Shown in pieces: positions 36,240 through 59,006 of a stretch of 64,000 nucleotides of DNA. Below the pieces are notes generated by a model. It made no database searches and was not told the origin of the DNA. It worked only from the letters and a program-made list of their open reading frames with translations. The stretch's first letter is position 1; each line of letters begins with the position of its first letter. This DNA is from Kiloniella majae (GTDB lineage: Bacteria > Pseudomonadota > Alphaproteobacteria > Kiloniellales > Kiloniellaceae): NCBI RefSeq assembly GCF_002118315.1, contig NZ_MTSZ01000003.1:620001-684000 (forward strand), read 5' to 3'. Made by a program: the position numbers and the translations under genes.

Positions 36240-36579
36240 TGGTGCGGACGGCGGGACTTGAACCCGCACGGCCGAAGCCAACGGATTTTCATACCATCTA
36301 CAGCTTTCGCTGCCACGCCGTTGGTGCAAGCACCGCGCGTTTGTGGTCTGGACTATCCCTTCACCATAACAAGGTCTAACTCACTGATCCTTGCCGTAGG
36401 TGCTGCCCGTCTAGTCTCTACACCTTCCCAAATCTTTTTCAAGTCTTGGGCTTGGCTCGGGATTGGCATCATCTTGCGATCTAAGCTTTCCCCGAATTTG
36501 AGCAGTTCTACTCTCTGGGTTTCCCCAAAGGCACTCAATTTTTTAAGTCCGTCGTGTCTACCAATTCCACCACGTCCGC
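36240..36579 (-). tRNA. tRNA-Leu(UAA), interrupted by a group I intron
   Basis: Exon 1 is 36545-36579 and exon 2 is 36240-36289, including an encoded CCA. Joined, they give a full leucine tRNA. The acceptor stem GCGGACG pairs with CGTCCGC. The D-loop reads GAATTGGTAGA and the anticodon stem pairs ACGGA with TCCGT. The anticodon loop is CTTAAAA with anticodon TAA. A long variable arm GGCTTCGGCC and a T-arm GCGGG TTCAAGT CCCGC follow. The intron splits the anticodon after U34, so the gene cannot make a working tRNA without splicing. Leucine identity is supported by the type II variable arm. Confidence 0.93.
36290..36544 (-). ncRNA. Group I self-splicing intron in tRNA-Leu(UAA)
   Basis: 255 nt inserted between U34 and A35. 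Group I marks are visible on the minus strand. The 5' exon ends CUU before the intron start AAAAAATTGAG, whose GAG can form P1 with CUU, giving the U-G pair. P-like and Q-like segments (TTCGGGGAAA and AATCCCGAGCC) form P4. R-like GAGACTAGACGGG and S-like GGATAGTCCAGACC form P7. The intron ends in G directly before AAAATCCG. The start and the GCAGCGAAAGCTG region near the 3' end resemble the tRNA-Leu introns of cyanobacteria and plastids (subgroup IC3 by inference). No homing endonuclease ORF is present. Confidence 0.9.
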
Positions 36580-36754
36580 ACGTGTTGTCTAGGACACTCT
36601 GTGAGGAAATCTCTCGCCCGAAAGCGGCTTTGTGTCAATGATTCGTTTTTGGGTTTTAAAATTTTTTTTGATTTTTTTCAAAATGGAGCATGGGTTGTTG
36701 TAAAAGGGCAAGGGTATGATTTTGAACGAAATTAAAACCCATGATCAGTTGTGT

Positions 36755-58647: not shown

Positions 58648-58733
58648 GTTTTCCTCCGTTTTATTTTCAGAGGAAGTTGTTCATGCTGTTTCCTGTTGGG
58701 GAAGGTGGATTAATGGCACTTGCCAATCCCAGC

Positions 58734-58840
58734 ATCTCAATTTCCTCCGCCGGTATTAACCGGATCAGGTTCTGCGGGTTAGCGTTAGCCTCTCAGCTTA
58801 ATGAACCAATATATTAGTTGATCAAGCACCCCGACGAGAT
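58734..58840 (-). promoter_or_regulatory. TPP riboswitch upstream of thiD
   Basis: On the minus strand the THI-box elements appear in order: GGGGTGC, AAGCTGAGAGG (the CUGAGA element), ACCCG, GAACCTGATC, and CCGGTTAATACCGGCG leading to GGAGGAAA. P1 can be closed by ATCTC at the 5' end with GAGAT at the 3' end. The aptamer binds thiamine pyrophosphate and represses the operon when it is plentiful. A CTTCCTC stretch downstream could pair with the GGAGG of the thiD start or of the aptamer, giving translational control; this part is inference. Confidence 0.93.
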
Positions 58841-59006
58841 TTCCTGAATTATGCGGTGCTTTTGAAAATAGGCAAGAGAGAAAGTTATTTTTGATTTTCT
58901 GGTTTATATTTTACTCAAATCTGGACCTGGGGATATGTTTTGGCGCATATAGAGCTTCTCAGCCCGCAGGTTGATCTGGCAGGGTGTTTTTTCGGGAGTG
59001 ATCTAA

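Follow-up and report, generated by a model that had tools for sequence, protein, structure and literature searches.

Where does a group I intron in the tRNA-Leu(UAA) gene of an alphaproteobacterium come from, and how has it been inherited? The question is raised by a locus of Kiloniella majae in the window analysed here (the whole stretch of DNA, 64,000 nucleotides long), for which the original prediction proposed a tRNA-Leu(UAA) gene split within its anticodon by an insert that begins like cyanobacterial ones, with tRNA and anticodon of the cyanobacterial type instead of the tRNA-Arg(CCU) and tRNA-Ile(CAU) hosts of proteobacterial introns, and left vertical inheritance and transfer as competing origins. 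By examining the gene itself, its distribution over genus, family and class, and trees of tRNA introns from chromosomes, phages and plasmids, we arrive at an explanation that we regard as highly probable: a functional split gene, inherited vertically within the genus, whose intron arrived from a pool of introns in Alphaproteobacteria, phages and integrative islands.

A tRNA-Leu(UAA) intron was reportedly found in a gammaproteobacterium in 2002, and papers by Paquin from 1997 and 1999 are earlier work bearing on tRNA introns. Proteobacterial tRNA-Leu(UAA) genes with a putative group I intron have been published: Thiomargarita and Beggiatoa (Gammaproteobacteria) carry putative group I introns in tRNA-Leu-TAA and tRNA-Arg-TCT (PMC4853749), although these hosts belong to another class than the window's, the intron type is not determined in that paper and the likeness is one of description only. 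Group I introns in tRNA genes of alpha- and beta-proteobacteria are the subject of reviews (PMC4033280, PMC11408192), with further examples in tRNA-Ile2 of Acidovorax and Burkholderia (PMC8450103), and a database of group I introns exists (PMC11835236).

The split gene and its intron

The minus strand from 36579 to 36240 holds a complete tRNA-Leu(UAA) gene with an encoded CCA and a 255-nt group I intron after U34. With introns allowed, ARAGORN reads tRNA-Leu(taa), 85 nt when spliced, with a 255-nt intron after the first anticodon base, bearing out the predicted split, insert length and CCA end; with default settings it reports no tRNA in the window. The intron matches the full Rfam model RF00028 (Intron_gpI) at 36554-36336 on the minus strand (cmscan, 68.7 bits, E 2.4e-15; curated cut-off 50 bits), so that the covariance model does find the predicted group I core. 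The parts of the gene are as follows, with helices P2 to P9 mapped on the window intron and pairs tallied across 154 tRNA introns aligned with MAFFT; the paired cells are those of 85 tRNA-Leu introns (72 from Alphaproteobacteria, 8 from the own genus and 5 from hosts labelled only Proteobacteria).

36545..36579, minus strand: 5' exon of tRNA-Leu(UAA), nt 1-35, ending ACUU, last base U34 (ARAGORN -i)
36290..36544, minus strand: group I intron, 255 nt, last base G (ARAGORN -i, cmscan RF00028)
36240..36289, minus strand: 3' exon of tRNA-Leu(UAA), 50 nt, starting AAAATCC and ending in the encoded CCA (ARAGORN -i, BLAST of spliced tRNA)
36533..36536, minus strand: internal guide GAGU, forming P1 with exon ACUU (36545-36548), U-G at the 5' splice site (sequence reading)
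36403..36505, minus strand: P3, 36505-36500 with 36408-36403, 510 of 510 cells paired
36496-36491 with 36461-36456, minus strand: P4, 494 of 510 cells paired
36486-36485 with 36467-36466, minus strand: P5, 170 of 170 cells paired
36456-36454 with 36424-36422, minus strand: P6, 255 of 255 cells paired
36450-36446 with 36431-36427, minus strand: P6a, 375 of 399 cells paired
36416-36412 with 36355-36351, minus strand: P7 (guanosine-binding helix), 425 of 425 cells paired
36402-36399 with 36365-36362, minus strand: P8, 340 of 340 cells paired
36301..36312, minus strand: P9-region hairpin, 36312-36309 with 36304-36301, 340 of 340 cells paired

In P2, 522 of 594 cells are paired. Changes on both sides of a helix occur in P2, P3, P5, P6a, P7, P8 and P9 and are absent from P4 and P6; when the partners are slid by 2 or 3 columns as a control, 0-67% of cells pair. 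The U-G pair at the splice site and the terminal G, both predicted, are confirmed by reading the window, whereas ACTT and a terminal G in the other 136 introns extracted below follow from the way these were extracted.

No endonuclease ORF lies inside the 255-nt intron among ORFs of at least 80 aa, and a 127-aa ORF on the plus strand (36258-36641) was rejected as a gene, since it runs antisense across nearly the whole tRNA gene. We take the intron to be of the small, ORF-less tRNA (IC3) subtype; its core motifs are very similar to those of the IC3-type group I intron in tRNA-Ile of Azoarcus, another tRNA. Elsewhere in the window, cmscan places a TPP riboswitch at 58724-58843 on the minus strand (62.6 bits).

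We infer that the locus is a functional tRNA-Leu(UAA) gene with a small group I intron. In the folded transcript, guide GAGU would be paired with exon ACUU. Splicing would begin with the attack of a free guanosine, bound in P7, after U34; the exon end released in this step would attack behind the terminal G, U34 would be ligated to A35, and a normal tRNA would result. Both the splicing and the function of the product are predictions from the gene's sequence.

Copy number and inheritance in the genus

The genome (4.38 Mb, 99.7% complete) has a single RF00028 match. None of its 37 other Rfam tRNA matches, all of them read by ARAGORN, is a second tRNA-Leu(UAA), the other leucine anticodons being UAG, GAG, CAG and CAA, and an exact-pattern search found neither an intact nor an orphan 3' half elsewhere in the genome (G000). 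Neither another intact copy nor a degenerate one was found, and the split gene is the only tRNA-Leu(UAA) found in this genome.

Eight of the nine genomes of the genus, the own genome included, have an RF00028 match, and all eight are read as tRNA-Leu(UAA); the ninth is a partial assembly (1.5 Mb, 77% complete). The flank on the LysR side is common to all seven congeners compared, that on the other side to six of the seven (the exception being L035). The exons are identical at 85 of 85 positions across six genus members, own included, and the 5' exon shows no difference among six of the eight. Because the gene occupies the same locus across members, the intron is inherited vertically at one locus within the genus.

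Outside the genus the family gives another picture. None of 14 genomes from its other genera has an RF00028 match, and an intronless tRNA-Leu(UAA) is read in all 14 (L534-L542 and L545, ten genomes; L552-L555, four), with exons matching the own exons at 64-69 of 85 positions. Between the two origins left standing by the original prediction, inheritance thus holds within the genus, and the earlier origin is a matter for the comparisons that follow.

Distribution of tRNA-Leu(UAA) introns

With RF00028 at E 0.001 a match, not always in a tRNA gene, was obtained in 11 of the order's 61 genomes, in 31 of 385 in the class sample and in 34 of 398 in the phylum sample; those that exceed the curated cut-off number 9, 14 and 16, respectively. 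By exon reading, tRNA-Leu(UAA) is the host in 15 of the 31 matched genomes of the class sample, and tRNA-Arg(CCU), tRNA-Lys and tRNA-Thr are other alphaproteobacterial hosts. Among the latter we noted group I introns in apparent tRNA-Lys (L047, L055, L061, L063, L073, L077) and tRNA-Thr(GGU) genes (L072, L074, L075) of Alphaproteobacteria.

At least 117 stretches of named genomes fit a pattern that describes the 3' side of a tRNA-Leu intron, the matches listed including Alphaproteobacteria, Cyanobacteria and Acidobacteriota; a Bacteroidota record (L349) was rejected as a chance match. From 178 loci examined we extracted 137 tRNA-Leu introns: 49 from named Alphaproteobacteria, 21 from the same class, 1 from the same order, 8 from the own genus, 5 from Pseudomonadota without a class, 10 from Acidobacteriota, 42 from Cyanobacteria and 1 labelled Gammaproteobacteria. 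The other 41 loci yielded no tRNA-Leu intron by the extraction rule, some being cut by locus ends; four loci outside the 137 (L320, L324, L325, L328) were read as tRNA-Leu and entered the trees, and a few contigs are represented by two loci each (e.g. L048/L443, L331/L407, L333/L390). The intron labelled Gammaproteobacteria groups with Cyanobacteria and is probably contamination. A cyanobacterial-type intron in a MAG labelled Tatlockia (L368) and a plastid-like contig in an alphaproteobacterial genome (L052) are probable contamination.

Bradyrhizobium, Sphingomonas, Caulobacter, Zymomonas mobilis, Reyranella, Pelagibacterium and others have tRNA-Leu(UAA) introns. Neither in Alphaproteobacteria nor in Acidobacteriota are introns of this kind a rarity, and the idea that the gene is exceptional for an alphaproteobacterium falls before the many named genera of the class that share the trait.

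Phylogenetic placement of the intron

In a first tree (154 rows, 213 columns; introns above 420 nt and exact duplicates left out, and a bootstrap that had not settled), the cyanobacterial tRNA-Leu introns lie on one side of a branch with support of 100/97, together with the plastid-like contig and the mislabelled Gammaproteobacteria record. A group supported at 100/99 holds the alphaproteobacterial tRNA-Leu introns, those of the own genus, six of nine acidobacterial tRNA-Leu introns and five alphaproteobacterial tRNA-Arg introns, the last five branching beside six tRNA-Leu introns (97/93). A second tree adds eight phage and two plasmid introns and keeps 14 of the 42 cyanobacterial rows (L322, L317, L326 and L378 were dropped; L515 and the Agrobacterium phage intron, L527, are absent). 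It recovers a cyanobacterial clade at 100/100 and, at 100/98, a clade of the own genus with all eight phage and both plasmid introns, with no resolved position for the tRNA-Arg introns inside it. The eight own-genus introns split 6+2, being monophyletic in 10% and 14% of bootstrap trees.

Both trees therefore set the genus apart from cyanobacteria, but with 213 columns, which are few, the AU test (on a tree without the three long rows L322, L317 and L326) rejects neither a clade of own genus and cyanobacteria (p 0.26) nor a single clade of all tRNA-Leu introns (p 0.316). A further comparison uses 24 signature columns of the core, picked, with the own genus left aside, for telling cyanobacterial tRNA-Leu introns from those of other Alphaproteobacteria: on average, introns of the own genus show the alphaproteobacterial state in 23.1 of these columns and the cyanobacterial state in 0.6. 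The window intron and its cyanobacterial counterparts share the tRNA, the insertion point and a group I core, yet differ in nearly all signature columns and fall in separate clades. Signature columns and trees speak against the predicted cyanobacterial type, which the AU test does not reject, and the resemblance noted at the start of the intron is confined to AAAAAATTGAG at its 5' end and to the insertion site.

The core appears instead to belong to a lineage common to alphaproteobacterial chromosomes, phages, plasmids and integrative islands. The group I introns in tRNA-Arg(CCU) of Agrobacterium and Bartonella are of the same core lineage, though in another tRNA and with another guide sequence; that of Bartonella splices in vivo and in vitro (PMC7717549).

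Whole-gene transfer was also judged by exon identity, an approach that we dropped: the own exons match those of an intronless gene of the same order (L565) and those of the nearest intron-bearing gene outside the genus (L056) equally, at 77 of 85 positions, so exon identity cannot settle the matter.

Introns of the same lineage on phages and plasmids

An exact 24-mer of the core is present in 28 viral contigs, in four of which (L463, L471, L472, L478) ARAGORN reads an intron-split tRNA around it; L481 agrees with L472 as far as its contig reaches. A 5'-side pattern finds 12 viral contigs, and tRNA-Leu(UAA) genes stand within viral tRNA arrays in L471, L515 and L522. In L457 and others of the 28 contigs the same intron core seems, by reading, to sit within phage coding sequence, conceivably that of a capsid gene.

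Some viral loci also encode endonuclease-like proteins. ORFs of 146-157 aa with HNH-like cysteines start about 150 nt past the 5' splice site in L513, L514 and L518, a similar one in L519 is cut by the locus end, and that of L516 is LAGLIDADG-like; Pfam places HNH above its cut-off in L514 and below it in L513, and LAGLIDADG_2 above it in L516. Their start positions suggest that all five lie inside the introns.

An isolated phage is among the carriers: the Agrobacterium jumbo phage Atu_ph07 (MF403008; L527 2996-3357) has a tRNA-Leu(UAA) with a 278-nt intron, which its record does not list as a tRNA and whose 3' part is overlapped by a hypothetical CDS. The accessible part of the Atu_ph07 paper counts 33 tRNAs and makes no mention of introns that we found (PMC6102473). 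According to a review, the phage introns observed by 2014 were in protein-coding genes, despite the tRNA genes of phages (PMC3984707). Lak megaphages, like the phages here, have introns in tRNA genes (tRNA-Tyr and tRNA-Thr), which the part of the paper available calls enigmatic and does not call group I (PMC6784885).

On plasmids, blastn of the window tRNA with its intron matches 1272 of 72,556 records, 1253 covering at least 80% of the query and 1269 at 60-80% identity; the plasmid tables list no RNA genes, and annotation of the split gene cannot be judged there. In the two enterobacterial plasmids that were opened (L524 5001-5299, L525 5001-5297), the gene, which ARAGORN misnames, lies about 650 bases from aac(3)-IId. 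The enterobacterial plasmid intron groups with six alphaproteobacterial introns (99/91), which may hint at the source of the segment bearing aac(3)-IId. A Bradyrhizobium plasmid carries the gene too, with integrase pieces upstream.

Integrase islands in other Alphaproteobacteria

Outside the window, other Alphaproteobacteria have tyrosine-integrase islands that interrupt a resident intronless tRNA-Leu(UAA) at ACTTAAAA, precisely where the intron itself is inserted, and that carry a complete intron-bearing substitute beside the integrase. An additional tRNA-Leu 5' half, which runs into AAAA with no intron, stands upstream on the same strand in 18 of the 137 intron-bearing loci; none of the 137 has one downstream, and L338 has one on the opposite strand. 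As a control, 30 distinct loci whose tRNA-Leu(UAA) is intact and intronless show no second half, at least 1.4 kb of upstream sequence being available in 27 of these 30 and in 110 of the 137.

In 14 of the 18 loci a protein of 393-449 aa (one start uncertain) is encoded between half and gene; L068, L353, L377 and L393 have the half without that protein. The same left end (displaced intronless 5' half, integrase, intron-bearing tRNA-Leu) is found in L343, L364, L385 (Pelagibacterium luteolum), L391, L397, L409, L414, L431, L445, L342 (labelled only Proteobacteria), L066, L058 and L056; L581 is part of the G044 island described below. Pfam Phage_integrase matches the island proteins weakly (two of five above cut-off) and NCBIfam names no family for the three integrases tested, while an AlphaFold model (pLDDT 80, pTM 0.50) has Foldseek matches to XerA, lambda integrase and Cre. 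An HMM of the integrase matches 21 of 87 other non-cyanobacterial loci, the 14 from which it was built included, and none of the 8 own-genus or 42 cyanobacterial loci.

A complete example comes from G044, a genome of the same order:

G044:C52 70728-102934 (L587, L623, L624): island of 32 kb in the anticodon loop of tRNA-Leu(UAA)

Read in one direction, it shows a 5' half, the integrase and an entire gene with its intron, followed 32.1 kb further along by an orphan 3' half; the two halves have GGACTTAAAAT in common. The congeners of G044, G043 and G045, keep the gene whole and intronless; they share its upstream flank at about 80-84% identity across some 4 kb, and on the downstream side nothing aligns beyond the tRNA.

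Searching 19 genomes for the exact pattern ACTTAAAAT followed by the T arm gave 14 places in 13 of them: 13 orphan 3' halves (two being contig ends of one genome) and one intact gene. Among the 14 loci that combine a displaced half with the integrase, nine have an orphan 3' partner, and L600 (G383) provides a tenth pair; the pattern has no match for L066, L342, L364 and L445, and for L397 it matches only the intact gene, the L397-L636 row being left out of the stem count on that ground. Allowing G-U, the halves pair at 7 of 7 acceptor-stem positions in nine pairs and 6 of 7 in one, and at 5 of 5 anticodon-stem positions in eight and 4 of 5 in two, while the 3' exon of the cargo gene fits the displaced 5' half worse in six, equally in three and is beyond the sequence covered for one. 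From the stem fit we conclude that both halves derive from a single resident gene, with the intron-bearing gene as cargo. An island reduced to a unit of 1.65-1.76 kb that ends at the intron was rejected: the displaced 5' halves do not match the neighbouring 3' exon in its anticodon stem, and orphan 3' halves were found.

Measured islands span 32.1 kb (G044), about 20.4 kb (G159) and about 27.5 kb (G069, on one contig). Proteins of the G044 island (ten scanned with Pfam, nine with PADLOC) include methylases, a PglX-like protein, ArdC, a resolvase, a MobA/MobL relaxase and a T4SS coupling protein in two pieces, whose split is the border of two sequence stretches retrieved. Such a content suggests a mobilizable element that carries restriction or defence genes.

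Three further observations concern neighbouring material. In G042:C26, from a G044 congener, two tRNA-Leu 5' halves lie about 32 kb apart (L589-L591), and the integrase HMM has no match in that stretch. An Afipia MAG (L437) has an integrase left junction, GGGACTTAAAAT, that does not read as a tRNA half, and its contig holds a degenerate second intron-bearing tRNA-Leu (L404). G069 encodes another integrase of the family, flanked on either side by a complete tRNA-Met(CAT) gene (L615).

Fragments of tRNA genes are known at genomic islands (PMC9897764), and Islander tDNA islands likewise combine a tyrosine integrase, a crossover in the anticodon loop and a displaced fragment (PMC4383910). In the standard islands of that source, however, the fragment restores the target, whereas here both halves are broken and a whole intron-bearing substitute is carried. 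The window gene does not sit in an island of this second sort. Our literature search, which covered open-licence papers, found among the papers listed no description of integrase islands carrying an intron-split tRNA-Leu.

Origin of the intron in the genus

Could the gene simply be a decayed copy? Nothing was found in favour of this, and a complete cloverleaf, a conserved core, the identical exons in six genus members and the lack of any other tRNA-Leu(UAA) in the genome make it scarcely tenable; we reject it. Transfer from a cyanobacterium or plastid would account for the shared tRNA and insertion site and is compatible with the AU test, but the signature columns, on which we reject a cyanobacterial donor, and the separation from the cyanobacterial clade in both trees render it highly improbable. 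That the intron is ancestral in Alphaproteobacteria, was lost many times and was kept by this genus would agree with its patchy presence over many families of the class. It is nevertheless unlikely, for all 14 family members of other genera are intronless with strongly different exons, and in the G044 genus (g18 of the order) the intron-bearing gene is on an island while the congeners keep an intact intronless gene.

The island of G044, with the same intron lineage in the same tRNA and in the same order, suggests another route, by which the gene came as cargo of an integrase island whose remainder was then lost. We consider this quite unlikely. The island integrase (HMM, E 1e-10) has no match in any of the nine genus genomes, one of them partial; none of the eight own-genus loci has an integrase directly upstream (about 1.5 kb upstream each); no displaced 5' half occurs in the window besides the gene itself; the gene's neighbours are conserved and not of an island; and the own intron starts AAAA, as none of 21 integrase-linked introns does. 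Since integrase and displaced halves are missing and introns of the own genus start AAAA, we keep the window gene apart from the islands. We favour the reading that the genus ancestor acquired the intron horizontally, drawing on the alphaproteobacterial, phage and island pool rather than on cyanobacteria; the route has left no direct trace, as no integrase or displaced tRNA half lies near the gene.

Integrase specificity and a possible role as shield

At 1e-20 the integrase matches 23 of 385 genomes of the class. All five integrases directly upstream of a tRNA-Leu(UAA) precede an intron-bearing gene (G440, G159, G069, G174, with a shortened integrase, and G383, whose contig ends inside the intron), which against 16 of 385 genomes counted as intron-bearing has a chance of 6e-8, in a search biased by an HMM built from intron-linked integrases. 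In G425, integrase and intron-bearing gene are about 2 kb apart.

Building on this architecture, we hypothesize, tentatively but as a serious possibility, that the islands use ACTTAAAA as attachment core, destroy the resident gene and survive by their substitute tRNA, the introns being kept and spread as shields of the attachment site. In the substitute gene the group I intron would sit exactly in the middle of the attachment core, so that the intronless GGACTTAAAATC would be the integrase's target and the same site split by the intron would not; the intron would protect the substitute from the island's integrase and from islands arriving later, splicing would restore the tRNA, and phages and plasmids would be further carriers of such introns.

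Other relatives of the integrase adjoin intronless tRNA-Met (six loci), tRNA-Arg(ACG) and tRNA-Leu(UAG); the family therefore has no general need for an intron, and these relatives speak against shielding as a general rule. Introns starting AAAA number 0 of 21 among integrase-linked, 3 of 54 among other alphaproteobacterial and 8 of 8 among own-genus introns, counts that are not decisive for shielding. Starting with AAAA, the window intron restores ACTTAAAA at the 5' splice site and does not, as it stands, fit a shielding role.

Implications

A gene of this kind is easily passed over. The default tRNA finder overlooks it (ARAGORN being the only program tried), and finders of the Islander type, which seek a restored tRNA and one fragment, would be expected to miss an intron-split tRNA whose target is broken in two. 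For the genus, the predicted splicing would mean that an essential tRNA of nearly every sequenced member depends on a ribozyme. More widely, how tRNA group I introns without an endonuclease spread is an old question, to which these loci suggest a testable answer: such introns occur within complete tRNA genes on islands, phages and plasmids, and may travel with them.
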